Shown: in pieces, positions 28,714 through 52,540 of the stretch | Numbering within the stretch: the stretch's first letter is position 1 | Layout of the letters: each line of letters starts with the position of its first letter | Assembly: GCF_001293165.1 (NCBI RefSeq) | Contig: NZ_CP010552.1 | Span: forward strand, 496,001-560,000 | Source: Candidatus Thioglobus autotrophicus | Lineage (GTDB): Bacteria > Pseudomonadota > Gammaproteobacteria > PS1 > Pseudothioglobaceae | DNA length: 64,000 nucleotides | Direction: 5' to 3' | Program-made: the position numbers and the translations under genes | Notes under the pieces: model-generated | Seen by the model: only the letters and a program-made list of their open reading frames with translations | The model's database searches: none | Told to the model about the DNA's origin: nothing

Positions 28714-28721
28714 GTTTACTG

Positions 28722-34627: not shown

Positions 34628-34686
34628 TATAGATTTTAATGATGCCAAACAGCGCATTAAATCCATCCATACCTACCAAATTAATT

Positions 34687-35064
34687 ATGAACATCAAAAA
34701 AATACAAAAACAACTTTCAGATTTTGCCGATGAGCGTGATTGGAATCAGTTTCACAATCCAAAGAACTTAGCAATGGCACTGTCTGTTGAAGCGTCAGAA
34801 TTAGTTGAAATTTTTCAGTGGTTAACGCCTGAACAAGCCGAAGCAATCATGGGTACTGATGAAAACGAGCATGTCAAAGAAGAATTGGCAGACGTTATGA
34901 TTTACTTGATTCGTTTGGCAGATAAATTAAACGTAGACATTGAGGATGCAGTTACAGATAAGATTGTTAAGAATGGCGAAAAGTATCCTGTTGACACTTC
35001 AAAAGGAAGCACTACGAAGCGCACAACGTTAAAAGAAAAGATTAAAGATTTAATTGCACTTTGA
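34687..35064 (+). CDS. MazG-like nucleotide pyrophosphohydrolase (125 aa)
   Basis: All-alpha NTP pyrophosphatase fold: VEASELVEIFQW gives the first metal-binding Glu pair and EELADVMIYLIRLAD the second ExxD motif. Length and sequence fit the short MazG-like or dCTPase-type family that hydrolyses (d)NTPs to NMP and pyrophosphate. The ATG giving MNIKKIQKQLSDFADER is chosen; a 16-codon upstream extension is open but does not fit. Next to defence genes, such enzymes can alter nucleotide pools during infection; housecleaning is the alternative. Confidence 0.85.
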   Translation: MNIKKIQKQLSDFADERDWNQFHNPKNLAMALSVEASELVEIFQWLTPEQAEAIMGTDENEHVKEELADVMIYLIRLADKLNVDIEDAVTDKIVKNGEKYPVDTSKGSTTKRTTLKEKIKDLIAL

Positions 35065-35285
35065 TTATGTTTAACCTCTTCAAAACAAGACCTGTAAGGG
35101 CGATTAAGGTACCAAACGACTTCGAAAACTCCTCTTGCAAGTGCATCCAACAAGAGATGATAATGAGCACCGAATGGATGGATACGAGCCAATATAAAAA
35201 AGTCAAAGCGTTACTAAAGTGTCAAAATTCAAAAACAAGGCGAATAAATTTACTTAGAAATCCTCAGAGAGATTTATTCGAATAG
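35061..35285 (+). CDS. Hypothetical protein (74 aa)
   Basis: A basic, Cys-containing small protein overlapping the end of the MazG-like gene by 4 bp and ending 14 bp before the phosphatase gene. No family is recognised. Two internal ATGs (MFNLFK and MIMSTEWMDT) could be the true start. Support is positional, from the tight overlap. Confidence 0.5.
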   Translation: MIMFNLFKTRPVRAIKVPNDFENSSCKCIQQEMIMSTEWMDTSQYKKVKALLKCQNSKTRRINLLRNPQRDLFE

Positions 35286-35299
35286 CAATCAAATTCATT

Positions 35300-36221
35300 A
35301 TGAAAAAACAAAGTTATGACTTAGTGGGTGACATTCATGGCCAAGCACTTGAGTTGGAAAAACTATTAGAAAAACTGTCTTATACAAAGACTGATGGCGT
35401 GTGGAAGCACACTGAATGTAAGATGATATTTTTAGGTGATTTTGTTGACCGAGGCAAGTATCAAAAAGAAGTGATTAATATTGTACGCCCCATGATTGAA
35501 CAAGGCCATGCACTAAGTGTAATGGGTAATCACGAATACAATGCTATTGCTTACTACACTCAAGATAGTGATGGCAATCACTTACGCTCTCACAATAACA
35601 AACATACCAATCAACACAAGGCATTTTTAAGCGCTTATGACAACGATTCCAGTGAAAAGGAAGATGTTATTGAATGGTTTAAAACGTTGCCTCTATGGCT
35701 AGATTTAGACGGCATACGAGTTGTACATGCTTGTTGGGATTTTGACTTAATTAGCAAACTGGGCAGTTCAGAATTAACCGATGATTTACTTCACCAATCG
35801 GCAATTACAGGCACATGGCAGAATGATGCAATTGAAACCATTCTAAAGGGGCAAAGAAATCCCGTTACCAGGATGGATATGGCTTTAATGATAAGGATGG
35901 CAACCCAAGAACACACATACGTATTAAATACTGGCTAAAAGATGCAGTTACTTATCAAGATTACTTTATGGGCCCTAGTGATGTACTAAATGATATTCCT
36001 GATATCCCTGTTGTTGGTGACTATTTGCTTGAATATGACTCTCAGGATAAGCCAGTATTCTTTGGTCATTACTGGATGGAGGGTAAAATTAAACCTTTAA
36101 CCGATAACATTGCCTGCCTTGATTACAGTGTAGCAAAGCCAGGTGGAAAGTTAGTTTCTTATCGATGGGATGGCGAACAGAGAATTGATAAGGATAAGTT
36201 GTATTTGTTGATAGGGGTTAA
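35300..36221 (+). pseudogene. Calcineurin-like phosphatase, frameshifted copy 1
   Basis: Same gene as the intact 306-residue copy at 47476-48396. An extra G at 35848-35851 (GGGG instead of GGG) shifts the frame after about residue 183, a second extra G near 35871 follows, and a T is missing near 36200. The frame therefore breaks into 35300-35938 and 35968-36237. All three changes are homopolymer or near-homopolymer indels in a stretch rich in such differences, so sequence error is more likely than real loss. Confidence 0.8.
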
Positions 36222-36310
36222 TTACCAACACAAATAAAACATTCAACCTTCATCTTTACGATGAATTCAAAAATATATAATGGTATATTCAAATATCATC
36301 ATTTATACCA

Positions 36311-37513
36311 ATGAATTTAAAACACTTATTAGCACTAATCATCTTATCGACACTATCGCTCTCCCATGTTAATGCTGAGCCCAGTAGCACTGTACTAGAA
36401 TTGCTACAAAGTGGCGAATTCAAACAAGCAGAAAAACTATTAATACCAATAGCAGAATCTGGTGACCTACCAACACAAGCACTCCTAGGTCAATTGTACT
36501 TGTACCAACTTGAGGATTACGACAAGGCATTTAAGTGGACATCTGTAGCAGTTGAAAATGGGCACAAAGATGCAATCTTCGACCTGGCAAATATGTATAA
36601 AGCCGGTCACGGCGTGAAACAAGACAAGCAAAAGGCATTCAGTCTTCTACTAATCTCGGCCGAACAAGGAATGGACTTTGCACAACTAGCAGTTGCAATG
36701 GCATATCAATTTGGAAGAAACGTTGATATAGATTTGGAAAAGGCAGCATTTTGGCATCATAAGGCTGCAAAAAATGACATGCAGAAGTCACATTTAGTAC
36801 TCGGAACCCTGTATTACTCAGGCATTGGTCTTAAAAAAGACGTTATTGAAGCACGTTACTGGTTAAACAGAGCAGTCAAAGGCGGAGGTGGTTTTGCAGA
36901 TGATGCGAGTAATTTACTTGATTTAATGGACGAAGAAAATTATGCGAGAGACAAAGATGGCTTAATTAGAAAAAGTCTCGACAAAGCAAGTTCAGGTCAA
37001 TTCAATGAAGCAAGAGAATTAATCGAAGAACTGGCAACTAACGGCAATCCCAATGCACAGAATATCTTGTCATTATATTACACAGACTCTAACGGTTTAA
37101 ATCAACCTAAAATCGGTAAAGAATGGCTATTCAAAGCCGCACATAATAACAATGCGGATGCGCAATACAGTATCGCATGGGACTTGTCAGAAAACTGGAT
37201 AAAGATAGATATTGAAAAATTAGTTGAACTAATTTATTGGATGGAGCGTGCAGGCTATAACGGAAATGATAAAGCATATCCAAATTTAGCAATTTTGTAC
37301 GATAAAAAGCATAGAGATACAATGGGTGAGATGGAGCAGGCTGCTAATAACGGCAACGCCATGGCTGCCTATAACATGGGTTGGATAAACGCTCGCGGAT
37401 TGCTTACTGAAGATGGGCTGATGCAAGACGAGGACGTTGCTGAGCAGTGGTTCAAGAAGTCGGCAAAACTTGGATTCAATGATGCAGTATTAATGTTGAA
37501 ACGTGGGTATTAG
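36311..37513 (+). CDS. Exported Sel1-like repeat protein (400 aa)
   Basis: A signal peptide (about 1-22, MNLKHLLALIILSTLSLSHV) is followed by about eight degenerate Sel1 repeats (ENGHKDAIFDLANMYKAG, KNDMQKSHLVLGTLYYSG, NNGNAMAAYNMGWINARG). It is presumably periplasmic. It is convergent with the leftward gene at 37527, with 13 bp between. It is unrelated in detail to the other Sel1 proteins of the block. Confidence 0.78.
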   Translation: MNLKHLLALIILSTLSLSHVNAEPSSTVLELLQSGEFKQAEKLLIPIAESGDLPTQALLGQLYLYQLEDYDKAFKWTSVAVENGHKDAIFDLANMYKAGHGVKQDKQKAFSLLLISAEQGMDFAQLAVAMAYQFGRNVDIDLEKAAFWHHKAAKNDMQKSHLVLGTLYYSGIGLKKDVIEARYWLNRAVKGGGGFADDASNLLDLMDEENYARDKDGLIRKSLDKASSGQFNEARELIEELATNGNPNAQNILSLYYTDSNGLNQPKIGKEWLFKAAHNNNADAQYSIAWDLSENWIKIDIEKLVELIYWMERAGYNGNDKAYPNLAILYDKKHRDTMGEMEQAANNGNAMAAYNMGWINARGLLTEDGLMQDEDVAEQWFKKSAKLGFNDAVLMLKRGY

Positions 37514-37526
37514 TTTTTAAAAAAAA

Positions 37527-38036
37527 TTACCCCCACCAGGTGCTAGAAATATACCCGTACTTGTTAATCCCTTTATCCAGTAACCAAGCATATTCACTAT
37601 CAGAAACCCAGCATAGCCACTTATAGTTTCCATAAAGTCCAATATGGCGACCACATATACTGTTATTATATTTAACCTGCTTAAGAGTCAAGTGAAGAGT
37701 TTTATAATTGCTCTTCAAATGGTCAGACTTAGCATACAAATTATTAAGCATTCTCATGTCGTAAACATATTTGTATCTATCTTCATCGGTAAACCTTTCT
37801 TTAGCCCAAGCAATACGTTCTTCTTTTGAAAAATTATTTTCTGCCCATGCTATTCGCTCTTCTTTATGGTGTTCATTTTTAAATTGCGCCTTATGGTTTT
37901 CCAAAACTTTCTTCGCAAGCCATGCATCACGTTGTTTCTTTGTGAAATTCTTTTTAGCCCATGCTTTGCGATGTGACTTAGTAAAGTTCTTCTTAGCCCA
38001 CGCTCTACGCTCTTCAGGTGTATATTCTTTATACAT
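37527..38036 (-). CDS. AWAKKNF-repeat protein (169 aa), copy 1
   Basis: The N-terminal half consists of five to six 12-14-residue repeats of the form ERxAWAKKNFTKxxR, strongly basic and helical. The C-terminal half (YVYDMRMLNNLYAKSDHLKS onward, with LCWVSDSEYAWLLDKG) is related to the 116-residue protein encoded just upstream. It belongs to an operon with the polymerase-like gene in copy 2; here the polymerase is only a fragment. The function is unknown; the repeats may bind nucleic acid. Confidence 0.65.
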   Translation of the reverse strand: MYKEYTPEERRAWAKKNFTKSHRKAWAKKNFTKKQRDAWLAKKVLENHKAQFKNEHHKEERIAWAENNFSKEERIAWAKERFTDEDRYKYVYDMRMLNNLYAKSDHLKSNYKTLHLTLKQVKYNNSICGRHIGLYGNYKWLCWVSDSEYAWLLDKGINKYGYISSTWWG

Positions 38037-38379
38037 TATTCACCTTATCCATCTTAAACACAAATCCAACCTTGTGCTCATCATAACCTTCAACGTGTTC
38101 ACCACAATTGTACAACCAATCAACTTCTGCACCACTTAACCAACACAACGTCTCGTCTCCGCAATATAAGAATGCTTCAGTACGTATGTACGAGTCAGAT
38201 TCACTCAGAACGAACTTAACCGTGTATTTGCCATTACAAGAGTCATTCATAAAGACAGAGGACTTCATGCACAATGAATTGAGCATGGTTAAATCAAGCA
38301 TATATTCAACCTTCTCTGCCTTAGTAAAATTATCAGGGCACCTAGTACCGTATTCGTCTTCATCAAACGTTTGATGCAT
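38029..38379 (-). CDS. Hypothetical protein (116 aa), copy 1
   Basis: Identical to the copy at 50205-50555. Shares YMLDLTMLNSLCMKS, ETLCWLSGAEVDWLYNCG and VEGY with the C-terminal half of the adjacent 169-residue protein, so the two are paralogous. The ATG at 38379 is supported by an AAAGGAGG ribosome-binding site 6 bases upstream, rather than the TTG two codons before. It overlaps the next gene by 8 bp. Confidence 0.68.
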   Translation of the reverse strand: MHQTFDEDEYGTRCPDNFTKAEKVEYMLDLTMLNSLCMKSSVFMNDSCNGKYTVKFVLSESDSYIRTEAFLYCGDETLCWLSGAEVDWLYNCGEHVEGYDEHKVGFVFKMDKVNNV

Positions 38380-38513
38380 GTGCAACCTCCTTTAGGTTGT
38401 TATTAAATTCAACAGATACAGTCAATTTCATATCAGCAAAACGGCGCTTGACACGTTCAAATCATCAGCGCTCATGCCTTCAATATAACGCCCATCATGG
38501 ATTCTCAACTTAA
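38363..38513 (-). pseudogene. 3' fragment of the polymerase-like gene
   Basis: The last ~50 codons of the polymerase-like gene, ending at the same stop as the full gene (50539), with one base missing near 38451 (GACACG instead of GACCACG) and cut off at the tandem junction. It is a remnant created by the duplication boundary. Confidence 0.88.
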
Positions 38514-38802
38514 TAACACCAATACAACTGTTGGCGTTATTAGTGCTGTTTCTGACAGGTCGCGTGTTGATTGTTTAACGGGCACCCATGCTTTCGAAGC
38601 AGATTGGGCTCAAGGTTTGAAAGTGTACGAATCTATCGGACAAGCACTGTACTATTCTGCTGAAACTGGAAAGCAACCAGGAATACTGTTGTTAATTAAG
38701 AAGAAAAACTCTGATAAATACATACGTAAGGTCAGACGAGTCATTGAAACGTTTAATTTGCCAATAAAATTAGTAATTCGAGACGTTCGAAGTGTTAACT
38801 AG
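38497..38802 (+). pseudogene. 5'-truncated exported nuclease-like gene with a chimeric start
   Basis: From 38552 on it is identical to codons 46-128 of the gene at 25580-25966. The original signal peptide is missing. The frame stays open through the 38-bp filler into the antisense of the polymerase fragment, giving a 101-residue chimeric frame that begins MDSQLNNTNTTVGVISAVSD. Without a signal peptide it would stay in the cytoplasm; expression is doubtful. Confidence 0.75.
38514..38551. other. Tandem-duplication junction with 38-bp unmatched filler
   Basis: Bases between the end of copy 1 and the start of copy 2 match neither flank. With the last bases of copy 1 they form an imperfect palindrome: TAATAACACCAA (38511-38522) and TTGGCGTTATTA (38531-38542), one mismatch, 8-base loop. 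The origin of the filler is not visible in this window. Confidence 0.75.
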
Positions 38803-38845
38803 ATTTAATTAACCTTAACAATCTAAAGACGCTGATATTTCCATA

Positions 38846-39203
38846 TCAATAAGGCTGCTTATTGATTCTCATTAAGTTATTGATTTCATAAACAATTAGT
38901 TTAACACTGTTACCTTTGACCTTAATCTCTGCCTTTATATCGGCTTTACAGTTGGCACCTGAGAATATAGTGAATTTACAACCTGCTAGTGATTTACGCG
39001 CTTGTCTGCCTGCATCCAATAAAACATCAAACGTACCATCTGCTGATTTAAAACTTAAATCAGTTTCAGACATAACGCCAATTCCAATTTCACCTGATGA
39101 CGTGATTTCTGTACCACTGAATTTATTAACTGCTTGTGTCAATGTTTGTGCGTTGGCAAAGGTTGCTGATAATGCTAGTGCTAAATATAATAATTTTCTT
39201 CAT
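38846..39203 (-). pseudogene. Small exported protein, copy 2 (frameshifted)
   Basis: Copy of 26010-26366. One extra A near 39183 shifts the frame inside the signal peptide, leaving an open frame only from about residue 21. The change is a homopolymer indel near the junction and may be a sequence error. Confidence 0.75.
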
Positions 39204-39204
39204 G

Positions 39205-40148
39205 TTATTGCCTCTTGTTAATTCGCTTGTTAGTCCATCGTATTTTATCTGACTTGGATTCAACTTAAGCAAACTTGATAATGTTATTGTTTTCTGTTTT
39301 GGAACTTTGTCATTCAGCACTTTAGTGTCTAGTACATAAAATCCCATTGGGATAAGTCTAGTGGGTTTACAGTGCCTTTATCCTTATGTGCAAGTACACA
39401 GAACACGTACACGTCTGCTTGTCTTTTTGCCTCTTCACTGCGTTTATTGTTTTCATCCCAAAGAACTGTTGGCTGTATGCCGAATATGATTTTCGATAAT
39501 TCTGTTGATTCCAACTTTGCAGGTACGCAGATGATTTAATTTCAATCTTGAGTCCTGACTTTGTTATTAAATCATACGCATCCCACTCTTCCCTTGGTTG
39601 TTCTAGTACATCTATTGTTGATGCAACGATAAACTCTGCAAGTACGCCCCTAAGCGCATTCCCTAGTAACTCAGAACTAGACCATTGCCAAAATGAAAGT
39701 ACATTTAGTGGCATTTCATTCCATCGAATACAAATGGCTCTTTGCCTGTTTTCTTTGCTGTTTTAACTGCTTGAAGTGGGTTTATTATGTATGATTTTTC
39801 TACTCTATCACTCTCGTCTTTTATGGCAACCTCTTCAGGGTTAATGACAGCATTGTATGGAATGCTTGACCATTCATAGTGAGATTCACCATCAGGTGTT
39901 TGCACTACATAAATCTGCTGCCTGATAGCAACATAACTACCGTCCTTTTTATGACCTTCCATAAGATAGTTGTAAAACCAGTAGTTGTGGTCTTTGTACG
40001 ATAGGCTTTTAATAAAGTCTAGTGTGTATGGAAATTTATTCTTAATATGCCTGTTAGCAAGTTTTTTTATTTCCTTTCTACTAATTGGGCAATTTTTAAC
40101 TACATCTGAGAATGCTTGATGTGAAGGCATGACGTTACTAACTTTCAC
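39205..40148 (-). pseudogene. PD-(D/E)XK nuclease-like protein (315 aa), copy 2, frameshifted
   Basis: Copy of 26368-27315. Single-base deletions near 39720, 39506, 39340 and 39220, each shortening a run of identical bases, split the frame into several pieces (40148-39705, 39714-39367 and shorter). The active-site region is interrupted downstream of the ExK motif. The intact first copy and the clustering of errors suggest that these are sequence artefacts. Confidence 0.8.
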
Positions 40149-40944
40149 TCAGACCTCTCCTAGATAACTCAGACCACATACCATCAAATAAATTTCTTGT
40201 CATTTCTTTGCATTCGAGACTACTTGCCTCGCTTTGCATTCTTTGGCTCTGCACATTCAGCATGGTGCAGAATGTTGGATAACTACAATAACTAATAGTA
40301 GTTCTTTTTAAGATATCTTTAACCTCGCTCCAATTAATTTGTATTGATTCAGTTTTTGATGCTCTGATTTTTAAGTTATCAATATCGAGTTCAAGCGCCG
40401 CTTGAATAGCCTCATATGGATTTGAAAATTTCTCAGACCATAAACTAGAGAACTCCTCCTTGACCCCCATGTACAACAACACCGACTCTTTCTTTATTAC
40501 TGTGTGTTTTTCTTCTAACCAATGAAGTAGAGCATATTTGTACACCTGCTCAAGTGAGGATTTGGCGCCAATTTTCATCTCAATACTAAAGTTGGTGATT
40601 TCAGATGTAAAGAGTAAATCAGGTTGAACTAACTTGCTAAACTTCAATACATCGTATCTTCCTTGCATGTAGAAATTATCTTGTACATCAGTACGAATAA
40701 TAGAGTCAGTATTGATATTGCACGTTTCATTGAGCAGTGTATTAATAAATTGAGATGGAACTATTCTAAAAAATACATTGAACATGTGATTCAATGAAAC
40801 TTCCATATTTTGTATATGGTCTAGTACATCTTGTTGATTGTTGTATCTGCTCTTAGGGTTCTTGATTTTCCCTAAGTGCTGTGGCTCCCAATAATAGAAC
40901 TCTGCAGTATCGTAATATTGTGATGTCCAATCTCTATCTTTCAT
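40138..40944 (-). CDS. PD-(D/E)XK nuclease-like protein (268 aa), copy 2
   Basis: Identical protein to 27305-28111, with the P108-D109 and E122-M-K124 signature intact. Same coupling to its neighbours as in copy 1. Confidence 0.7.
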   Translation of the reverse strand: MKDRDWTSQYYDTAEFYYWEPQHLGKIKNPKSRYNNQQDVLDHIQNMEVSLNHMFNVFFRIVPSQFINTLLNETCNINTDSIIRTDVQDNFYMQGRYDVLKFSKLVQPDLLFTSEITNFSIEMKIGAKSSLEQVYKYALLHWLEEKHTVIKKESVLLYMGVKEEFSSLWSEKFSNPYEAIQAALELDIDNLKIRASKTESIQINWSEVKDILKRTTISYCSYPTFCTMLNVQSQRMQSEASSLECKEMTRNLFDGMWSELSRRGLSES

Positions 40945-41219
40945 GTATTGTTTCTACTAAACCTTTTTATAATCTCATCTTCAACATCATCAATAAGTTC
41001 ATTGGTAAATTGGTCAGAGTGTGATGGAAACGGATTCTTGGGCTTATACAGGGTGTCAATCTCTTTAAAGAAACAACTGCCAATAGACTCAATTACTGTT
41101 CTTTTTCCATTTAGTTCAATGAACCATTTTTTGTCAAAGTCTCTGAACTCCATTCTACCGTTGTGCTTGCCAATGATAATTTCCTTTAGTTTTTTATATG
41201 GTGCGTTTATTTTATTCAT
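40941..41219 (-). CDS. Hypothetical small operon protein (92 aa), copy 2
   Basis: Identical to 28108-28386, including the 4-bp overlap with the 268-residue nuclease gene and the 3-bp gap from the 107-residue gene. Confidence 0.62.
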   Translation of the reverse strand: MNKINAPYKKLKEIIIGKHNGRMEFRDFDKKWFIELNGKRTVIESIGSCFFKEIDTLYKPKNPFPSHSDQFTNELIDDVEDEIIKRFSRNNT

Positions 41220-41222
41220 AAG

Positions 41223-41546
41223 TTATTTCGGTAAATCGTTGTGTGCCAATCGATATTCATACGATTGCTCCTTGGCACATCTGTTAATAATTGTAGTGTC
41301 GTCAATAGGTGCCCCCATAGTCCAGTACACCATGCCATCTTCATCAAAATATGTAATATCCATTTTATAAAACTTTCCAACATAACCATTTGCTCTTATA
41401 TGCTCAACCATTTTTATAAACAAGCCCTTATCAACTTTGTCTCGAACAATGTATTCATGTGGCCACGTCTTGGCATAGGTCTTGGCAAAAATCCAATTGG
41501 ATTCTTTGATGAAGTTTTTTAGTTGTTGTACAAACTTGTTATCCAC
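41223..41546 (-). CDS. Conserved small protein of defence neighbourhoods (107 aa), copy 2
   Basis: Identical to 28390-28713; it lies 8 bp after the DUF262 gene. See that entry for motifs. Confidence 0.68.
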   Translation of the reverse strand: MDNKFVQQLKNFIKESNWIFAKTYAKTWPHEYIVRDKVDKGLFIKMVEHIRANGYVGKFYKMDITYFDEDGMVYWTMGAPIDDTTIINRCAKEQSYEYRLAHNDLPK

Positions 41547-41554
41547 GTTTACTG

Positions 41555-43636
41555 CTATGACAAGGCTTCTTCGTACGCAAGACGAATCAATTCTTTGAAT
41601 TTATTTAAATCACTTTTTTGCTCTATTTCACAATACACACCACTTAAATCAGCATAAACAATAAAAGACCATTCATGAGTATCTGAGCAAATTTCTTGCA
41701 TCTCAGTAGGTATTTGGTCGTATTCAAGTGACATAACAATAGCAAGTTTTCCACTTCTTGGTATTACTTGAAGAAATGGTTCCAATGTATAGAATGTGAG
41801 ATTCTTTTTGCCAATAATTAATGATGAGTCGGATGCTATGCTGTCAATATATGATTTTAATTGACTGAAGAGTTCAGTAGTATTTTCCTTAAATCCATCA
41901 ACATCAGAGGTTGTTTTTCCATGACTTAGATGTTTGCGCTCATCTAGAGCATATTCTGATATTAATTTTGAGGAAATTTTCAATAAAGGCCATAATTGAA
42001 TAGATTGATTTGCCAGTCTTTCCGCTCTAGCAATCATTTCATTTTCTGTCCAAACTTCACTTTCTCGCATATCCCGATTAAGTCTAAGTGGACTCACATC
42101 AAACCCGCCATTAATGGTTTTTTTGGTTTGATAGTCTTTATCACTGTATTCAGAGTTATAACCTGTGAGCGTTAAGTTGCCAAGTCTGTGTAGCCATGTT
42201 TGATGCACTAATTGCCAATCATCTCCAAGCATATCTTTCCACTCTTTACGCAAGTTCTCATTTTGAGGCATGATGTGCTCAATACTGAACTTAGTAGTAT
42301 CAATCTTTTCTTTACTATCATTCTCAATTCGCTCTAATATGAGTCGACAGTTTGCCGACTCATATAAATCGTTATTCTTTAACGATTCAATAAATTCAAC
42401 ATCATTAGGGAATCTGCTATTTTTGCTGAAGCGTGCAATTGCAACAGATAGACTCTCTAATGGCTTTTCTTCGGTTATCTTTTGAGCAAGAGATGCAAAT
42501 AGATTGCCATACGAGCGTGTCTGCATTCCACAAACCGACCTTCTTAGGATGTAACTCTCTAACAATCTGACAGATTTAATGAAGTCATTTTTTGATAATT
42601 TGTCTGTTTCGTGTAATTGATACAGTCGAATAATGACAGGTGTTGCAACGTCAATTAATCGTTTTAAGTCACTAAAGGCATTTTTAAGTTCATTGTCACT
42701 TTCTTGCAATAATGAATAGTTAGTATAGAAACGCACCTGATTATGAATATTGTTGAGTATTTCATCAATTGGTTTATCATTTATTTGCTCTGAAAACCAT
42801 TGCTTGAACAGAACATAGACATCAACTGCCCTAACAAGAATATTGGATTTGGTCGCAAGTGTTAAGAAGTCTTGTGCAAAACGGTCAAATTTCTTCTCAT
42901 AAAACCCACCGAACAGTTGTTCCATAGGGAACCATGTATTTTCATATAGTTCTGTTTGAATATCTTGTGGCTGGTTCATGAGTACGTAATTACGAATCAA
43001 GTCAGCCTGACTAAGGTCAACGCCAGTAGAGTTTAAACTTTCAAATATTGCTTGCGGGTCATCTTGGTTGATTTGCAAAAGAACCTCAACAACCTTAAGT
43101 GTTTGCAGTCCTTGATATGCAGTCTCAATGGATTCCTTATCAATAAATTGGTCACAGAAGTAATCAAAATTACGTTTCATATTATCTGAAACATCTTCTG
43201 AATCATATTTTTTATCAACCAATGCACGAAGGGATGATTTATCACGTTTGGTCAACAAAAGTTTGTAGTGCATATCTCCATCGCCAAATCTATTGGTGAG
43301 AAAATATTCTTCAATTGCATCCAATGATGTTGCAGAAACACTTTCCATTCCCAACTCACTTGCACATTTTAATAAAGCAATTATTAATAATGTAATCGTG
43401 GTTAGTCGTTGCTGACCGTCAATAACCTGCCATTTAGGAATGCTTGCTGTTGTTTCTAAATTGGAAATCAATACAACTGAACCAATAAAATGACCAGCCT
43501 GTCTTGGACTTATAATGTCCTTATATAGCAGCGCACAATGAATTTCTTTCCAGTTGTAAGTACGCTGAAAGATTGGTATTAAAAACTGCTTTGGACCTTG
43601 TATTATTTCAACTAAAGACTTGTCACTTGCTTGCAT
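41555..43636 (-). CDS. GmrSD-like DUF262-DUF1524 protein, copy 2
   Basis: The 693-residue product is identical to that of 28722-30803, with the NTPase motifs (21-29, 73-80) and nuclease motif (H454) intact. If the duplication is real, the cell has two full copies of the operon's main gene. Confidence 0.85.
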   Translation of the reverse strand: MQASDKSLVEIIQGPKQFLIPIFQRTYNWKEIHCALLYKDIISPRQAGHFIGSVVLISNLETTASIPKWQVIDGQQRLTTITLLIIALLKCASELGMESVSATSLDAIEEYFLTNRFGDGDMHYKLLLTKRDKSSLRALVDKKYDSEDVSDNMKRNFDYFCDQFIDKESIETAYQGLQTLKVVEVLLQINQDDPQAIFESLNSTGVDLSQADLIRNYVLMNQPQDIQTELYENTWFPMEQLFGGFYEKKFDRFAQDFLTLATKSNILVRAVDVYVLFKQWFSEQINDKPIDEILNNIHNQVRFYTNYSLLQESDNELKNAFSDLKRLIDVATPVIIRLYQLHETDKLSKNDFIKSVRLLESYILRRSVCGMQTRSYGNLFASLAQKITEEKPLESLSVAIARFSKNSRFPNDVEFIESLKNNDLYESANCRLILERIENDSKEKIDTTKFSIEHIMPQNENLRKEWKDMLGDDWQLVHQTWLHRLGNLTLTGYNSEYSDKDYQTKKTINGGFDVSPLRLNRDMRESEVWTENEMIARAERLANQSIQLWPLLKISSKLISEYALDERKHLSHGKTTSDVDGFKENTTELFSQLKSYIDSIASDSSLIIGKKNLTFYTLEPFLQVIPRSGKLAIVMSLEYDQIPTEMQEICSDTHEWSFIVYADLSGVYCEIEQKSDLNKFKELIRLAYEEALS

Positions 43637-43715
43637 AAGGACTCCGAATAATATTAATAATGTGACTCATATTAACTTGTATAAATTAGGTAATTAATTA
43701 TGCGCTAAATGGAAT

Positions 43716-43907
43716 TCAGAATGCAACAAATCCAAGTCTGTTGGGTTTATCTGGTTTGTACCCTTGGATTAATAATTTCTCAACTAGTGGCACATCCCCC
43801 TTTCTTGCGGCATCATTAACTGTAACATCACTCTCAAATGCTACTGTATTAAATGGGATAAACAACAAAAGTGTTGGTACAAGTAAATTAATAGTTTTTT
43901 TGTACAT
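43716..43907 (-). CDS. Short exported protein with partial ankyrin repeat, copy 2
   Basis: Identical to 30883-31074: a signal peptide and a single truncated ankyrin unit. It is probably a gene remnant. Confidence 0.5.
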   Translation of the reverse strand: MYKKTINLLVPTLLLFIPFNTVAFESDVTVNDAARKGDVPLVEKLLIQGYKPDKPNRLGFVAF

Positions 43908-43997
43908 AGTTCCTATATGTTGAAGTGATAAAATTAATATACCATTAAGATATCTAAGTTACTAATTTATGCCATTAAAAAAATACCTAACTAAGCA

Positions 43998-44648
43998 ATG
44001 AAGTCAATAATAATATCGCTATATTTACTGCTATCTAGTTATGCAAACACTTCATTTGCAGATTTTACTAGTGCTGTAAGTAATTATAATAAAGGCAACT
44101 ATAACACAGCATTTAAAGAATTTAAACATCTTGCAGAACAAGGGAATATTGGCGCTCAAACTAATTTGGGCATGATGTATGAACATGGTACAGGTACACC
44201 TAAAGATTATAAACAGGCGGCTTACTGGTATCGCATGTCTGCAAAACAAGGAGGTGCCGCTGCTCAAGATAGCCTAGGCGTAATGTATGCTAATGGTCAA
44301 GGTGTGCCTAAAAATGATAAGCAAGCAGTTGAATGGTTTAAAAAGTCTGCTGAACAAGGGTTTGCCAATGCTCAGCATCATTTAGGTGTTATGTATGAAA
44401 GTGGCGGAGGCGGCTTACTTAAAGACGAAAAACAAGCGTCTGAATGGTACCGTAAGGCAAAAGAACAAGGTTATGTTAGCACTAAATATGATGATGCTTC
44501 AATTGCATATGAAGGCGCTAAAAAAGGTATGGCGGCAGCGGGTTGGGCTGTATTTGCTTTATTGGCACTATTACTATATAAGATTATCAACGTATTATTA
44601 ATTCGATATAAGAAAAGAAAGGATGCTGCAAAAAAAATTACACAATAA
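43998..44648 (+). CDS. Membrane-anchored Sel1-like repeat protein, shortened copy (216 aa)
   Basis: Same signal peptide, first repeat, last repeats and C-terminal membrane helix as the 435-residue copy 1, but 219 residues (about six repeats) are missing. The loss is exactly 657 bp, in frame, and its ends coincide with the two perfect 57-bp repeats of copy 1 (31378-31434 and 32035-32091), leaving one of them at 44211-44267. It is still expected to make a functional, shorter solenoid. Confidence 0.82.
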   Translation: MKSIIISLYLLLSSYANTSFADFTSAVSNYNKGNYNTAFKEFKHLAEQGNIGAQTNLGMMYEHGTGTPKDYKQAAYWYRMSAKQGGAAAQDSLGVMYANGQGVPKNDKQAVEWFKKSAEQGFANAQHHLGVMYESGGGGLLKDEKQASEWYRKAKEQGYVSTKYDDASIAYEGAKKGMAAAGWAVFALLALLLYKIINVLLIRYKKRKDAAKKITQ

Positions 44649-46086
44649 AAGGAAACCCGTATGGCCATGGCTAGTTTTGTCTTTGATAGTATGTATTTGG
44701 TATTCATATAAAGTTACTGAAGGTGATGCTTCTTATGCCTTTATTTTAGGAGGGGTTTCATTCTTAATTGGAATTCCTTTATTTATAGTTATAGTTATAG
44801 ATATTCTTTCAAGAATTTTCTCTAAAAAACCCTTAACAAGAGAGGTTTTTCTTGTGATTTTTATACCAATATTCGTTTATGTGTTGAATATGAGTTGGCA
44901 AGGCACACCAATGTACTGGAAGCAAAAGGCTGAGAATGGTAATAATATCGCTCCATTCATTCTTGGCGTTATGTATGACAAAGGCAAAGGAAGCACCCCT
45001 AAGGATAATCAACAGGCAGTTTATTGGTATAAAAAATCTATTGCACAAGGAGACGATATCATTGCTAATAATGCACAGCGTAATTTAGACCTTATGTATA
45101 AAAGATATCCAGGGTTAAAAGAGAAATATCAACCATACGTGTATAGCCCTGATAACTGTTTATTTGAAGTTACATTCCCAGAAAAGCCAGTAATAAATAA
45201 AGTTAGTAATGCCGTTACTGAATATGAGCAGGCTGAACTAGTAACAGAAGATTCTTTTTTTAGAACGGAATGCATTGGTTTGACGCTAGAAAACCCTATT
45301 ACAGAAATAAGAGCCTCTCTTGAGGCTCTAGGAAGTGCTGATGGATTAAAAAATGTTTCTATTATTAATGACTTAAAAGACGCTCGTTACATATCTTCAA
45401 AAATGAGAGGGTATAAAAATATAGCAGAAACACCTACAACATTTAATGTTTATGCTTATTATAAAAAGAAATCATTATTATTTCTTACGGTTGCAAGTAA
45501 AAGTGTAAATTATCCTACTAATTCTATGCGTAATTTCTTATCTAGCGTAAAAGTTAAAGAATTATTTGTACTTGAACAAGATATTTATAACAATATCAAG
45601 AAAAACCTTACAACGGCAGGCATTGATAAAAATGTTTTGGACAAAATGTTGCAATCGTTTAATAGTTACGAAAAATATATACAACCTGCAAAGGAAGGGG
45701 ATACTGATGCTCAATATTATTTGGGCCGTATGTATCATAAAGGCAAGGATGTTATTAAAAATGATGAAATGGCGTTTTTATGGTTTGAGAGGGCAGCAGA
45801 ACAGGGGCACGCTCCTTCCCAATTCAATTTAGGGCTTATGTACGATAAAGGCGAGTCAACACCTGTGAACTATAAACAGGCTTATTATTGGTATAAAAAA
45901 GCAGCAGAACAAGGCAATCCTAATGCACAACATAACTTAGGCTCTAAGTATATTTTCGGCCTTGGTGTTGAAAAGGATTACAAAAAAGCCAAATTTTGGT
46001 ATGAGAAAGCACGTGATAATTCCGATAAATATGTTACAAAGAAAGCAATTGAAAATATAGAGAAATACAAACTATCGGAATATTAA
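44623..46086 (+). CDS. Multi-TM protein with Sel1-like repeats (487 aa), copy 2
   Basis: Identical to 32447-33910, overlapping the preceding Sel1 gene by 26 bp. The 186 bp that follow (46087-46272) repeat the gene remnant described at 33911-34096. Confidence 0.75.
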   Translation: MLQKKLHNKRKPVWPWLVLSLIVCIWYSYKVTEGDASYAFILGGVSFLIGIPLFIVIVIDILSRIFSKKPLTREVFLVIFIPIFVYVLNMSWQGTPMYWKQKAENGNNIAPFILGVMYDKGKGSTPKDNQQAVYWYKKSIAQGDDIIANNAQRNLDLMYKRYPGLKEKYQPYVYSPDNCLFEVTFPEKPVINKVSNAVTEYEQAELVTEDSFFRTECIGLTLENPITEIRASLEALGSADGLKNVSIINDLKDARYISSKMRGYKNIAETPTTFNVYAYYKKKSLLFLTVASKSVNYPTNSMRNFLSSVKVKELFVLEQDIYNNIKKNLTTAGIDKNVLDKMLQSFNSYEKYIQPAKEGDTDAQYYLGRMYHKGKDVIKNDEMAFLWFERAAEQGHAPSQFNLGLMYDKGESTPVNYKQAYYWYKKAAEQGNPNAQHNLGSKYIFGLGVEKDYKKAKFWYEKARDNSDKYVTKKAIENIEKYKLSEY

Positions 46087-46272
46087 CGCTTTTAATATTT
46101 TTTGAAAATTAGTTCTTCATGCATACAGTCTCTGCATAGCCCCCATCGCGAACCTCACTTCCTGGAATGTACATTTTTTAGAGAGGATATTGATGAGGTT
46201 AAGGATTACAAAGGCGATGGAAGTTCTTTTTTGGTAATTTACTTTCCAATATAATTATTAATAAAACTACTT

Positions 46273-46803
46273 ATGACCACTAAAATTGAAAAACCAATAA
46301 TTTACTCTAAAGAGGCGCCTAGACAAATTATATTCGAGGATTACAAGTCACTTAATGGGGAGTTGCCCATATTAGGTGGTTGGGGATACACTAAAGAAGA
46401 TGCTGTAATTATTGATAAAAATGACCCTACCGCTTCAAAAGGCTTGCCTTTTGATGGTGTAGATATTGAGTATACTTTTGTTGAAAAAAGAATTTACGAA
46501 GAGTTGATTGTATTTAGTCTACTTGGTGAGCCACATGCTGGCATAGGATGGAAGCAACTTAGTCAAAAGTTGGAGACACACAACGAGCGTGATTACGATA
46601 TATTGACATATGAAGTTACCGCACTCCCTAAGTCAGACTGGCATGAATTAAAAGAAGACTTAAAGAGTGGCGGCCCTTCAGGGGTGGATGCATATGAAGA
46701 GAAGAGAAGAGAAAAATTGATTAGTTATACAACCGAATATTGGTTTGATATTACAAGTTTTTTTGGCGCATCATCAAAGGTGGATGATAAAGAGCCATTT
46801 TAG
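46273..46803 (+). CDS. Hypothetical protein (176 aa), copy 2
   Basis: Identical to 34097-34627. No family is recognised. Confidence 0.62.
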   Translation: MTTKIEKPIIYSKEAPRQIIFEDYKSLNGELPILGGWGYTKEDAVIIDKNDPTASKGLPFDGVDIEYTFVEKRIYEELIVFSLLGEPHAGIGWKQLSQKLETHNERDYDILTYEVTALPKSDWHELKEDLKSGGPSGVDAYEEKRREKLISYTTEYWFDITSFFGASSKVDDKEPF

Positions 46804-46862
46804 TATAGATTTTAATGATGCCAAACAGCGCATTAAATCCATCCATACCTACCAAATTAATT

Positions 46863-47240
46863 ATGAACATCAAAAAAATACAAAAACAACTTTCAGATTT
46901 TGCCGATGAGCGTGATTGGAATCAGTTTCACAATCCAAAGAACTTAGCAATGGCACTGTCTGTTGAAGCGTCAGAATTAGTTGAAATTTTTCAGTGGTTA
47001 ACGCCTGAACAAGCCGAAGCAATCATGGGTACTGATGAAAACGAGCATGTCAAAGAAGAATTGGCAGACGTTATGATTTACTTGATTCGTTTGGCAGATA
47101 AATTAAACGTAGACATTGAGGATGCAGTTACAGATAAGATTGTTAAGAATGGCGAAAAGTATCCTGTTGACACTTCAAAAGGAAGCACTACGAAGCGCAC
47201 AACGTTAAAAGAAAAGATTAAAGATTTAATTGCACTTTGA
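46863..47240 (+). CDS. MazG-like nucleotide pyrophosphohydrolase, copy 2
   Basis: Identical to 34687-35064, with both Glu-rich metal-binding motifs. It is upstream of the intact phosphatase gene in this copy. Confidence 0.85.
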   Translation: MNIKKIQKQLSDFADERDWNQFHNPKNLAMALSVEASELVEIFQWLTPEQAEAIMGTDENEHVKEELADVMIYLIRLADKLNVDIEDAVTDKIVKNGEKYPVDTSKGSTTKRTTLKEKIKDLIAL

Positions 47241-47461
47241 TTATGTTTAACCTCTTCAAAACAAGACCTGTAAGGGCGATTAAGGTACCAAACGACTTCG
47301 AAAACTCCTCTTGCAAGTGCATCCAACAAGAGATGATAATGAGCACCGAATGGATGGATACGAGCCAATATAAAAAAGTCAAAGCGTTACTAAAGTGTCA
47401 AAATTCAAAAACAAGGCGAATAAATTTACTTAGAAATCCTCAGAGAGATTTATTCGAATAG
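47237..47461 (+). CDS. Hypothetical protein (74 aa), copy 2
   Basis: Identical to 35061-35285; it overlaps the MazG-like gene by 4 bp. Confidence 0.5.
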   Translation: MIMFNLFKTRPVRAIKVPNDFENSSCKCIQQEMIMSTEWMDTSQYKKVKALLKCQNSKTRRINLLRNPQRDLFE

Positions 47462-47475
47462 CAATCAAATTCATT

Positions 47476-48396
47476 ATGAAAAAACAAAGTTATGACTTAG
47501 TGGGTGACATTCATGGCCAAGCACTTGAGTTGGAAAAACTATTAGAAAAACTGTCTTATACAAAGACTGATGGCGTGTGGAAGCACACTGAATGTAAGAT
47601 GATATTTTTAGGTGATTTTGTTGACCGAGGCAAGTATCAAAAAGAAGTGATTAATATTGTACGCCCCATGATTGAACAAGGCCATGCACTAAGTGTAATG
47701 GGTAATCACGAATACAATGCTATTGCTTACTACACTCAAGATAGTGATGGCAATCACTTACGCTCTCACAATAACAAACATACCAATCAACACAAGGCAT
47801 TTTTAAGCGCTTATGACAACGATTCCAGTGAAAAGGAAGATGTTATTGAATGGTTTAAAACGTTGCCTCTATGGCTAGATTTAGACGGCATACGAGTTGT
47901 ACATGCTTGTTGGGATTTTGACTTAATTAGCAAACTGGGCAGTTCAGAATTAACCGATGATTTACTTCACCAATCGGCAATTACAGGCACATGGCAGAAT
48001 GATGCAATTGAAACCATTCTAAAGGGCAAAGAAATCCCGTTACCAGATGGATATGGCTTTAATGATAAGGATGGCAACCCAAGAACACACATACGTATTA
48101 AATACTGGCTAAAAGATGCAGTTACTTATCAAGATTACTTTATGGGCCCTAGTGATGTACTAAATGATATTCCTGATATCCCTGTTGTTGGTGACTATTT
48201 GCTTGAATATGACTCTCAGGATAAGCCAGTATTCTTTGGTCATTACTGGATGGAGGGTAAAATTAAACCTTTAACCGATAACATTGCCTGCCTTGATTAC
48301 AGTGTAGCAAAGCCAGGTGGAAAGTTAGTTTCTTATCGATGGGATGGCGAACAGAGAATTGATAAGGATAAGTTTGTATTTGTTGATAGGGGTTAA
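47476..48396 (+). CDS. Calcineurin-like metallophosphatase (306 aa)
   Basis: The intact copy of the gene broken at 35300-36221. Metal-binding motifs are GDIHG (10-14), GDFVDRG (46-52), GNHE (76-79), H143 in VVHACWD and FGHYW near residue 262. The order and spacing fit the PPP/PrpE/ApaH-like group that removes phosphate from proteins or dinucleotide polyphosphates. It follows the MazG-like gene and the 74-residue gene, which suggests a nucleotide-directed role, but the substrate cannot be deduced. Confidence 0.85.
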   Translation: MKKQSYDLVGDIHGQALELEKLLEKLSYTKTDGVWKHTECKMIFLGDFVDRGKYQKEVINIVRPMIEQGHALSVMGNHEYNAIAYYTQDSDGNHLRSHNNKHTNQHKAFLSAYDNDSSEKEDVIEWFKTLPLWLDLDGIRVVHACWDFDLISKLGSSELTDDLLHQSAITGTWQNDAIETILKGKEIPLPDGYGFNDKDGNPRTHIRIKYWLKDAVTYQDYFMGPSDVLNDIPDIPVVGDYLLEYDSQDKPVFFGHYWMEGKIKPLTDNIACLDYSVAKPGGKLVSYRWDGEQRIDKDKFVFVDRG

Positions 48397-48486
48397 TTAC
48401 CAACACAAATAAAACATTCAACCTTCATCTTTACGATGAATTCAAAAATATATAATTGGTATATTCAAATATCATCATTTATACCA

Positions 48487-49689
48487 ATGAATTTAAAACA
48501 CTTATTAGCACTAATCATCTTATCGACACTATCGCTCTCCCATGTTAATGCTGAGCCCAGTAGCACTGTACTAGAATTGCTACAAAGTGGCGAATTCAAA
48601 CAAGCAGAAAAACTATTAATACCAATAGCAGAATCTGGTGACCTACCAACACAAGCACTCCTAGGTCAATTGTACTTGTACCAACTTGAGGATTACGACA
48701 AGGCATTTAAGTGGACATCTGTAGCAGTTGAAAATGGGCACAAAGATGCAATCTTCGACCTGGCAAATATGTATAAAGCCGGTCACGGCGTGAAACAAGA
48801 CAAGCAAAAGGCATTCAGTCTTCTACTAATCTCGGCCGAACAAGGAATGGACTTTGCACAACTAGCAGTTGCAATGGCATATCAATTTGGAAGAAACGTT
48901 GATATAGATTTGGAAAAGGCAGCATTTTGGCATCATAAGGCTGCAAAAAATGACATGCAGAAGTCACATTTAGTACTCGGAACCCTGTATTACTCAGGCA
49001 TTGGTCTTAAAAAAGACGTTATTGAAGCACGTTACTGGTTAAACAGAGCAGTCAAAGGCGGAGGTGGTTTTGCAGATGATGCGAGTAATTTACTTGATTT
49101 AATGGACGAAGAAAATTATGCGAGAGACAAAGATGGCTTAATTAGAAAAAGTCTCGACAAAGCAAGTTCAGGTCAATTCAATGAAGCAAGAGAATTAATC
49201 GAAGAACTGGCAACTAACGGCAATCCCAATGCACAGAATATCTTGTCATTATATTACACAGACTCTAACGGTTTAAATCAACCTAAAATCGGTAAAGAAT
49301 GGCTATTCAAAGCCGCACATAATAACAATGCGGATGCGCAATACAGTATCGCATGGGACTTGTCAGAAAACTGGATAAAGATAGATATTGAAAAATTAGT
49401 TGAACTAATTTATTGGATGGAGCGTGCAGGCTATAACGGAAATGATAAAGCATATCCAAATTTAGCAATTTTGTACGATAAAAAGCATAGAGATACAATG
49501 GGTGAGATGGAGCAGGCTGCTAATAACGGCAACGCCATGGCTGCCTATAACATGGGTTGGATAAACGCTCGCGGATTGCTTACTGAAGATGGGCTGATGC
49601 AAGACGAGGACGTTGCTGAGCAGTGGTTCAAGAAGTCGGCAAAACTTGGATTCAATGATGCAGTATTAATGTTGAAACGTGGGTATTAG
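48487..49689 (+). CDS. Exported Sel1-like repeat protein (400 aa), copy 2
   Basis: Same product as 36311-37513. The frame is open 17 codons further upstream here because of a one-base difference near 48456 (TAATTGG rather than TAATGG), but ATG 48487 is kept because it begins the signal peptide. Confidence 0.78.
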   Translation: MNLKHLLALIILSTLSLSHVNAEPSSTVLELLQSGEFKQAEKLLIPIAESGDLPTQALLGQLYLYQLEDYDKAFKWTSVAVENGHKDAIFDLANMYKAGHGVKQDKQKAFSLLLISAEQGMDFAQLAVAMAYQFGRNVDIDLEKAAFWHHKAAKNDMQKSHLVLGTLYYSGIGLKKDVIEARYWLNRAVKGGGGFADDASNLLDLMDEENYARDKDGLIRKSLDKASSGQFNEARELIEELATNGNPNAQNILSLYYTDSNGLNQPKIGKEWLFKAAHNNNADAQYSIAWDLSENWIKIDIEKLVELIYWMERAGYNGNDKAYPNLAILYDKKHRDTMGEMEQAANNGNAMAAYNMGWINARGLLTEDGLMQDEDVAEQWFKKSAKLGFNDAVLMLKRGY

Positions 49690-49702
49690 TTTTTAAAAAA
49701 AA

Positions 49703-50212
49703 TTACCCCCACCAGGTGCTAGAAATATACCCGTACTTGTTAATCCCTTTATCCAGTAACCAAGCATATTCACTATCAGAAACCCAGCATAGCCACTTAT
49801 AGTTTCCATAAAGTCCAATATGGCGACCACATATACTGTTATTATATTTAACCTGCTTAAGAGTCAAGTGAAGAGTTTTATAATTGCTCTTCAAATGGTC
49901 AGACTTAGCATACAAATTATTAAGCATTCTCATGTCGTAAACATATTTGTATCTATCTTCATCGGTAAACCTTTCTTTAGCCCAAGCAATACGTTCTTCT
50001 TTTGAAAAATTATTTTCTGCCCATGCTATTCGCTCTTCTTTATGGTGTTCATTTTTAAATTGCGCCTTATGGTTTTCCAAAACTTTCTTCGCAAGCCATG
50101 CATCACGTTGTTTCTTTGTGAAATTCTTTTTAGCCCATGCTTTGCGATGTGACTTAGTAAAGTTCTTCTTAGCCCACGCTCTACGCTCTTCAGGTGTATA
50201 TTCTTTATACAT
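49703..50212 (-). CDS. AWAKKNF-repeat protein (169 aa), copy 2
   Basis: Identical to 37527-38036. Here it is the third gene of the leftward operon polymerase-like gene, 116-residue protein, 169-residue protein. It overlaps the 116-residue gene by 8 bp. Confidence 0.65.
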   Translation of the reverse strand: MYKEYTPEERRAWAKKNFTKSHRKAWAKKNFTKKQRDAWLAKKVLENHKAQFKNEHHKEERIAWAENNFSKEERIAWAKERFTDEDRYKYVYDMRMLNNLYAKSDHLKSNYKTLHLTLKQVKYNNSICGRHIGLYGNYKWLCWVSDSEYAWLLDKGINKYGYISSTWWG

Positions 50213-50555
50213 TATTCACCTTATCCATCTTAAACACAAATCCAACCTTGTGCTCATCATAACCTTCAACGTGTTCACCACAATTGTACAACCAATCAAC
50301 TTCTGCACCACTTAACCAACACAACGTCTCGTCTCCGCAATATAAGAATGCTTCAGTACGTATGTACGAGTCAGATTCACTCAGAACGAACTTAACCGTG
50401 TATTTGCCATTACAAGAGTCATTCATAAAGACAGAGGACTTCATGCACAATGAATTGAGCATGGTTAAATCAAGCATATATTCAACCTTCTCTGCCTTAG
50501 TAAAATTATCAGGGCACCTAGTACCGTATTCGTCTTCATCAAACGTTTGATGCAT
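50205..50555 (-). CDS. Hypothetical protein (116 aa), copy 2
   Basis: Its ATG (50555) overlaps the last 17 bases of the polymerase-like gene in another frame. The ribosome-binding site AAAGGAGG sits in the loop and 3' arm of a small inverted repeat (CAACCT/AGGTTG), so translation may depend on ribosomes finishing the polymerase gene. It is paralogous to the C-terminal half of the 169-residue protein. No family is known to me; the operon position suggests a replication or transcription partner of the polymerase. Confidence 0.68.
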   Translation of the reverse strand: MHQTFDEDEYGTRCPDNFTKAEKVEYMLDLTMLNSLCMKSSVFMNDSCNGKYTVKFVLSESDSYIRTEAFLYCGDETLCWLSGAEVDWLYNCGEHVEGYDEHKVGFVFKMDKVNNV

Positions 50556-51933
50556 GTGCAACCTCCTTTAGGTTGTTATTAAATTCAACAGATACAGTCA
50601 ATTTCATATCAGCAAAACGGCGCTTGACCACGTTCAAATCATCAGCGCTCATGCCTTCAATATAACGCCCATCATGGATTCTCAACTTAACGTACTCATC
50701 GAACCCAGAAAAAGCAGTATCCATGGCGTAACGTTCAAAATGTTGGAACTGATAAGCCATCAATTTAGAAGAACTTAACTTACCACTATTGCTATGAAGA
50801 TAAGGCAAATCATGAAGTTCAGGATGTGCCTTAACAACAGCAGTAGTAATTTTTTTCATATCAGATGAATACCCAGTGATGAATTCGTGATTCAAAAAGC
50901 GTGCTCGATGGATTTTGTTTTGTAATAAAGTGTTAATAGCATTATCTTTGTAATCAATAATACGGGCGCCAAAACCAATTGATGTAATACACTGTTTGAT
51001 GATTTTAAGATAAGAATCAGTAACGGGTTTACAATCACATTTGCTATCACATTCACATTCAGTACCAAAATCACAATAAAAGTTAGCATCGGACTCATCC
51101 ACGTTAAATACTTTCTTGGTGATTTCAACACGCATACTTGCCTTCTCATCACTGAATAACTTCAAGTAATTACAACCCACACCATGTTTATTTGCTTGTC
51201 GCATAAGGAACTCATTAGAGCAACTATCAATATCCACCTCAATTGCATTAGGCAGTGCTGCTTTACGTAGTTCCTTAGGAGCACCTTGTAAGTTAAGACA
51301 CCTGTAATACAAACGTCCAAAATTGCTTTCATTAGGGATATGCGGTAGATAACCAAACACCTTATGTACGTGCAATAGGTAATTAGCCACTCTAACAGTA
51401 TGCTTCTTCTTGAAGCCACTACGAGCACTACGTAATGAATCTGCATCGATATATACCTTCTCATGTCTTGATGGGTCAGATATCTCATCAAGATAATCCC
51501 TGAAGATGCAATCAGATACAAGATAACTATTAGTCATACCTTCATTAATAACTTTCCTGAATGAAGGGATAACAACAACTGATGATAATTTCTTAGATAA
51601 ACCATCGCCTTTACCAAGAACACGGAACAAAGGACAAACAGCAAGGATGGATTTATAAACACAACGTCGGGTCTTGTTAACATTGAAGGTGCCTAGTTCT
51701 TTAGCAAATCCAGTAAGGTAGATGTTGTAAATACCTAGGCTAAGCAGAGCATCTTTGTTGTATATGGTTTGCTTGATAAATTCATTAATGACGACATCAT
51801 AGAACTTTGCAACCTTGGTAAGTGATTTGTTAATTGGGTACCCAGTATTCACATGAAGTAGACGTGCTGTTTCTTTCACATACAACTCCCAATGAGTTAG
51901 TACTTGGGTCTTAAATTCGTAATTGGTTTTCAT
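50539..51933 (-). CDS. Putative family A / T7-like single-subunit polymerase (464 aa)
   Basis: I recognise no named family, but the palm motifs of the family A DNA polymerase / T7-type RNA polymerase superfamily appear in order. GRLYYRCLNLQGAPKELRKA (206-225) resembles the pre-motif A region. Motif A is EVDIDSCSNEF (D234 or D236; compare DGSCSG of T7 RNA polymerase). Motif B is K313-x7-F321-G322, the Lys-to-aromatic spacing seen in both groups. Motif C is RIHDGRYIE (D421). A Cys cluster (287-301, CDFGTECECDSKCDC) between A and B may bind zinc. At 464 residues it is much smaller than known members and lacks an exonuclease domain. It may be a primase-polymerase or RNA polymerase for the element. 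The assignment rests on motif order only. Confidence 0.55.
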   Translation of the reverse strand: MKTNYEFKTQVLTHWELYVKETARLLHVNTGYPINKSLTKVAKFYDVVINEFIKQTIYNKDALLSLGIYNIYLTGFAKELGTFNVNKTRRCVYKSILAVCPLFRVLGKGDGLSKKLSSVVVIPSFRKVINEGMTNSYLVSDCIFRDYLDEISDPSRHEKVYIDADSLRSARSGFKKKHTVRVANYLLHVHKVFGYLPHIPNESNFGRLYYRCLNLQGAPKELRKAALPNAIEVDIDSCSNEFLMRQANKHGVGCNYLKLFSDEKASMRVEITKKVFNVDESDANFYCDFGTECECDSKCDCKPVTDSYLKIIKQCITSIGFGARIIDYKDNAINTLLQNKIHRARFLNHEFITGYSSDMKKITTAVVKAHPELHDLPYLHSNSGKLSSSKLMAYQFQHFERYAMDTAFSGFDEYVKLRIHDGRYIEGMSADDLNVVKRRFADMKLTVSVEFNNNLKEVAHASNV

Positions 51934-52526: not shown

Positions 52527-52540
52527 GGCCCCGGGCACCA
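52527..52540 (+). other. Right attachment core (attR)
   Basis: GGCCCCGGGCACCA, identical to the tRNA-Leu 3' end at 13264-13277 and in the same orientation. It marks the right end of the island; the native tRNA terminator follows at once. Confidence 0.88.

Follow-up and report, generated by a model that had tools for sequence, protein, structure and literature searches.

A probable, very divergent TV-Pol-type family A polymerase of a 39-kb tRNA-Leu element in Candidatus Thioglobus autotrophicus

In the stretch of DNA analysed here (64,000 nucleotides of the Candidatus Thioglobus autotrophicus genome, hereafter the window), a gene at the right end of an integrated element encodes a 464-residue protein that, to judge from its sequence, is probably a new and very divergent member of the TV-Pol kind of polymerase first described in 2008. 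We consider it likely that this protein is the TV-Pol-type family A polymerase of the 39-kb tRNA-Leu element and that it starts or extends strands during replication of the element. This assignment places a family that is called hypothetical by Pfam, PHROGs, and automatic annotation on the family A polymerase map, and it brings together copies that occur on Polaromonas plasmids, in jumbo phages, and in gammaproteobacterial integrative elements. The gene and its motifs are the following:

50539–51933, minus: TV-Pol-type family A polymerase-like protein (P0001), 464 aa
51283–51318, minus: beta-hairpin motif GRLYYRCLNLQG; R207 and Q216 invariant; aligns with TGRLSSxxPNLQN of Pol I
51217–51234, minus: motif A, DIDSCS; D234 invariant (predicted metal ligand); S239 at the position of the Pol I steric gate E710
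51031–51075, minus: five-Cys cluster, C287–C301; private insertion with TGTGAN-like repeats
50968–50997, minus: motif B, KQCITSIGFG; K313 invariant
50734–50745, minus: QHFE, in the helix that precedes motif C; contains the invariant E400; lines up with the QG helix of Pol I
50668–50679, minus: motif C, IHDG; H420, D421, and G422 invariant

Homology to family A polymerases

The original prediction described an open reading frame at 50539–51933 whose product has the palm motifs of family A DNA polymerases or T7-like RNA polymerases. The coordinates and the length of 464 residues were confirmed, and the gene was assigned to the minus strand. The frame is intact over its 464 codons (51933–50539, minus), has a Shine-Dalgarno-like AAGGA, and contains all eight residues that are invariant in the family. 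The named motifs occur as claimed and in the order given (GRLY at 206, NLQG at 214, LRKA at 222, DIDSCS at 234, K313-x7-F321-G322, and IHDG at 419–422), and when the protein was shuffled 200,000 times, the ordered motif string was found 0 times. No Pfam model matches the protein, and it has no PHROG or PDB sequence match of note.

The searches reached 20 relatives of the window protein, which are located in the same genome, on Polaromonas plasmids, in phages (jumbo phages included), and in integrase- or resolvase-associated elements. A full-length paralogue with 46% identity is encoded in the same genome (G000:C1:918116-919396), which also contains fragments of the window gene. Two small Polaromonas plasmids were identified by tblastn (E 2e-8 and 3e-5), and the search chained onward from these plasmids to a Desulfovibrio phage and to Microcystis phages, including Ma-LMM01; further members of the chain were the Vibrio phages GR11A and GR7B and jumbo phages of Erwinia and Dickeya. 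Codon-degenerate searches with the conserved motifs added IMG/VR contigs (one other such pattern search was empty), and five gammaproteobacterial genomes came from a profile search. Scans of viral sequences and genomes with alignments that were mixed or built from single proteins yielded no matches. Because no convincing case of the polymerase gene was found in the other genomes of the host family that were searched (83 in all), the gene looks acquired. Integrases, resolvases, or recombinases adjoin relatives, and on small plasmids relatives are repeatedly found next to RepA. Two Vibrio coralliilyticus phages (L020:4951-7720 and L026:2483-5188) have a ribonuclease HI gene immediately after the relative. 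The homologue on the Polaromonas plasmid pH8NP1 (L009:6095-7600) carries the annotation "Clp protease N-terminal domain-containing protein", which seems to derive from a Pfam match below the threshold. We regard the weak Clp_N, methyltransferase, and RE_Eco47II matches of the relatives as chance matches, because they do not reach the cut-off, differ from member to member, and contradict the polymerase alignment.

Eight residues (R207, Q216, D234, K313, E400, H420, D421, and G422) are identical in 21 of the 21 core proteins. The invariance that had been expected of K313 and D421 was thus observed, and the proposed conserved pair D234/D236 was upheld for D234 only; the position of D236 is occupied elsewhere by N, E, S, K, R, C, V, or A. 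In the core tree, the window protein pairs with its paralogue, and the nearest neighbour is the Desulfovibrio phage protein (96/92 support); the deeper branches are long and unsure. A cluster of five cysteines between motifs A and B is present as described (residues 287, 293, 295, 299, and 301); however, it is private to the window copy and not a feature of the family, as none of the 20 relatives has it, not even the paralogue with 46% identity. The DNA of the cluster is a run of TGTGAN-like units. Given this restriction to one copy and the likeness of the DNA to a repeat expansion, there is no support for zinc binding by the cluster.

When the 21-sequence core alignment was compared by hhalign with a reference profile of 29 family A polymerases (25 bacterial and 4 phage), all of the motifs were collinear over 192 columns (P 1.2e-8, probability 95.6%, score 72.7), and the controls fell far below this score: the highest of 160 column shuffles reached 21, and reversed Pol A reached 14.8. 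A first 15-member alignment of the family had given P 4.3e-5, and the match persisted without the two proteins of this genome (P 1.5e-7). Those two proteins alone had no profile match to Pol A (P 0.57), and an hmmsearch of the family profile against PDB sequences yielded no matches. In the profile pairing, the GR...LQ hairpin corresponds to TGRLSS..NLQN, D234 to the Asp of motif A, K313 to the Lys of the O helix, the QG/E400 helix to the QG helix of Pol I, and HDG to HDE.

The same superfamily motifs, a GR hairpin, D, K-x7-YG, and HDS, are present in T7 RNA polymerase; however, that enzyme has 883 residues, and it has no significant profile match to the family. The comparison with a PF00940-type RNA polymerase profile gave P 0.023, and the positive control, Pol A versus RNA polymerase, was likewise negative. 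Homology to Pol I is supported, whereas the proposed kinship with T7 RNA polymerase could not be shown with the profiles used. The A-to-B spacing is 79 in the window protein with its insert, 55 in the paralogue without it, 47 in T7 DNA polymerase, and 94 in T7 RNA polymerase; by this measure, the motif spacing of the window protein resembles that of a DNA polymerase and not that of T7 RNA polymerase.

The AlphaFold2 model of the window protein itself, which was built from a nine-row alignment, had a pLDDT of 34.6 and was not used. Because of this value, and because the two sequences of this genome alone have no profile match, the fold of the window protein rests on its relatives. In the AlphaFold2 model of the relative L033, core residues 180–540 mostly have a pLDDT of 70–94, and VIA aligned about 280 residues of the model with Pol theta (Z 16.2, 281 residues), Klenow (15.9), and T7 DNA polymerase (14.8). 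The top 50 aligned PDB entries are all family A DNA polymerases, and Foldseek agrees. No T7-like RNA polymerase is among these best 50 rows, an absence that does not count against kinship with T7 RNA polymerase. The alignment of L033 with Pol A structures begins at about residue 195 and includes the helices before the hairpin; the region of the window protein ahead of the hairpin comprises only about 200 residues. In a viral library, the matches include the DNA replication protein of the Zamilon virophage, which is related to the Sputnik protein that served to define the TV-Pol domain. The window protein is predicted to combine the thumb, fingers, and palm of DNA polymerase I, but no nuclease, with an N-terminal region of its own. 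Three lines of evidence support a family A palm that carries motifs A, B, and C but no nuclease, namely the invariant residues of the homologues, the controlled profile comparison, and the confidently predicted fold of a relative, and there is a strong case from sequence that the window protein is a divergent family A polymerase, with the homology running through its family.

The tRNA-Leu element

The last 14 bases of tRNA-Leu recur at 52527–52540, and the two copies bound a 39-kb element with the following features:

13191–13277, plus: tRNA-Leu(TAA), the integration site; left att core GGCCCCGGGCACCA at 13264–13277
13344–14498, plus: tyrosine integrase (DUF6538 and Phage_integrase) at the left end of the element
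15484–16011, plus: N-terminal polymerase-gene fragment, 98% identical, in the inverted copy of the right end
16206–16985, plus: HUH-type replication protein (REP_ORF2-G2P, just under the curated cut-off), beside the truncated polymerase copy
38366–38517, minus: C-terminal polymerase-gene fragments, where the first copy of the internal duplication ends
49703–50212, minus: 169-aa ORF that overlaps the 118-aa ORF and is 29% identical to it over 95 residues
50205–50561, minus: 118-aa ORF, overlapping the polymerase gene at its end; may encode an accessory protein; no known family
52527–52540: right att core, the same 14 bp as on the left; marks the right end of the element

The polymerase gene is the last gene at the right end, and in the circular form of the element it and the integrase gene point away from each other on either side of the joined att site. 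Next to the integrase, at 14546–15978, the element has an attP-like junction, an inverted copy of its joined ends, which shows that a circular junction once existed; this copy is a trace of a circular or a second copy of the element. A 12-kb direct duplication inside the element (25716–38513 and 38552–50690) has 99.5–99.7% identity and one unequal stretch. It holds a GmrSD-type restriction gene, Sel1-like repeat genes, and MazG, and some genes are truncated in one of the copies. In addition to GmrSD and MazG, the element has MORN and an IS3-type transposase. The HUH-type protein makes rolling-circle replication of the element possible, and the rearranged element may no longer be mobile.

Such rearrangement raises the question of whether the polymerase is a decaying or inactive remnant that has kept its fold and has no polymerase role. 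The truncated copies of the gene in the same element and the internal duplication and inversion of the element are consistent with this explanation. However, the full copy retains its 464 codons, the AAGGA sequence, and the eight invariant residues, and the paralogue, although diverged to 46% identity, keeps the same eight residues. We therefore consider a remnant to be very improbable.

Comparison with known polymerases

According to Iyer, Abhiman & Aravind (2008; PMC2579912), TV-Pols are nuclease-free family A polymerases of 400–600 residues that occur in mobile elements and viruses, often adjoin integrases, resolvases, or D5 helicases, and are predicted to have primase-polymerase activity. 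Minimal nuclease-free polymerases of mobile elements had thus already been described, and the proposal that the window protein represents a new branch does not stand. It had also been noted that the protein is roughly half the usual size and has no exonuclease; the second point is correct, and the size is ordinary for a TV-Pol. The window family shares with TV-Pols the nuclease-free core, the N-terminal region, and a mobile-element or phage setting next to an integrase, resolvase, or transposase. The absolutely conserved Arg of the hairpin is R207 (21/21), the two conserved aspartates of the palm are D234 and D421 (21/21), and the 464 residues have no Pfam match to a nuclease or any other domain. 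The neighbourhood is formed by the integrase, the att sites, and tRNA-Leu, and relatives are found beside integrases or recombinases. The fingers of TV-Pols were described with RxxxK and a conserved Asp, and the thumb with two helices. In P0001, the residue four positions before K313 is L, the other members have an alignment gap there, and the 21-protein core alignment shows no conserved Asp in the fingers. The window protein differs from TV-Pols in its private Cys insert and in that no D5-like helicase was found in its element. The Microcystis phage Ma-LMM01 was named as the carrier of a TV-Pol element (PMC2579912), and the relative in this phage, gp030, adjoins two transposases and is not among the PF00476 matches of that genome. 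Because its core, its size, the absence of a nuclease, and its neighbourhood agree with the published description, we consider the window protein to be most probably a TV-Pol.

For one TV-Pol member, primase activity was shown: the CCPol of SCCmec primes DNA on single-stranded DNA together with its partner MP (Bebel, 2020; PMC7581432), and priming was later extended to PolA-SSB pairs in Bacillota (Rice, 2023; PMC10061031). As in the CCPol-MP system, the window element encodes a Pol A without nucleases, and the polymerase gene is followed by a gene for a small protein. However, the CCPol gene is followed by the Cch2 helicase gene, whereas no helicase, D5-like or other, was found among the scanned ORFs of the window element, which is unlike both the TV-Pol/D5 and the CCPol/Cch2 modules. 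The partner of CCPol is an OB fold, whereas the small ORFs of the window are two overlapping downstream frames with no family match and are candidate partners only.

In phages, the divergent polymerases divPolA1 and divPolA2 have been described, the latter in barbaviruses and Vibrio phages (Yutin, 2024; PMC11348598). Like the window protein, divPolA2 is a divergent Pol A with no exonuclease and an unrelated N-terminal domain, and GGRMY...NLP...YDF of AUR84708 resembles the hairpin and motif A of the window family (local P 1.3e-4). However, divPolA2 has FDE instead of HDG, has no K-x7-[FY]G match, and is missed by the family profile. As has been suggested for divPolA2, the window protein could be an active family A polymerase that serves the element or phage mainly in gap filling, repair, or translesion synthesis, and not in element replication. 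Three of the four tested phages that have a relative also carry a canonical Pol A, so that the polymerase-like protein is additional to the replicative enzyme; a repair role was proposed for another divergent phage PolA (PMC11348598), and the lack of a helicase among the scanned element ORFs would also agree with this explanation. Nevertheless, relatives recur beside RepA on small plasmids and beside integrases and resolvases, and the CCPol that was tested is a primase when paired with MP (PMC7581432). We consider a main role other than element replication to be unlikely.

The likeness to DNA polymerase I (PF00476) comprises the collinear motifs and the predicted palm, fingers, and thumb. The window family differs from it in that the 5′ and 3′ nucleases are absent, HDG replaces HDE, the equivalents of E710 and F762 are absent, and the proteins are below Pfam detection.

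Probable function and sugar selection

By analogy with CCPol-MP of SCCmec, we infer that the most likely function of the window protein is that of a primase-polymerase of the 39-kb element. D234 and D421 would bind two metal ions, and K313 and R207 would hold the phosphates of the incoming nucleotide and the template. The enzyme would start and/or extend strands on the single-stranded DNA of the excised element; the 118- and 169-aa proteins may provide a grip on the single strand, as MP does for CCPol in SCCmec, and the HUH protein of the element may make the initiating nick. If TV-Pols are primase-polymerases, this compact enzyme could be used to examine how a DNA polymerase fold gains priming.

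CCPol keeps the equivalents of E710 and F762 and makes DNA primers (PMC7581432). In P0001, these positions are S239 and T317; across the family, the E710 position of E. coli Pol I is H, Q, S, N, or V, and the F762 position is L, Y, T, I, H, or F. Because the ribonucleotide-rejecting residues of Pol I are absent, the enzyme might prime with RNA, and their absence makes the choice between DNA and RNA directly testable. An RNA-making enzyme, either a small single-subunit RNA polymerase or an RNA primase derived from Pol A, would explain why both equivalents were lost across the family whereas CCPol keeps them (PMC7581432), and RNase HI as the next annotated gene in the Vibrio phages would fit such an enzyme. 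However, the nearest folds of the predicted structure of the relative are DNA polymerases, the motif spacing is DNA-polymerase-like, and the invariant E400 or other residues could act as the gate. An enzyme devoted to RNA synthesis therefore appears quite unlikely. It is also rather doubtful, although conceivable, that HDG, the invariant E400, and the missing sugar gate together mark a distinct Pol A clade of elements and phages that primes with ribonucleotides or with both sugars, in which the small proteins of the overlapping genes would be a new template-gripping subunit. If this were true, such a clade would be a third independent type of enzyme with the Pol A fold that needs no primer, in addition to CCPol-MP and the T7-like RNA polymerases.

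The element of the polymerase also contains a gene for a calcineurin-like phosphatase (window 47476–48396). A homologue with 42% identity (L087:7465-8406) directly adjoins a polymerase relative in another gammaproteobacterium, and in Ma-LMM01 a more distant homologue (L019:8428-9648) is a few genes away from the polymerase relative. The phosphatase is possibly a recurring companion of the polymerase.
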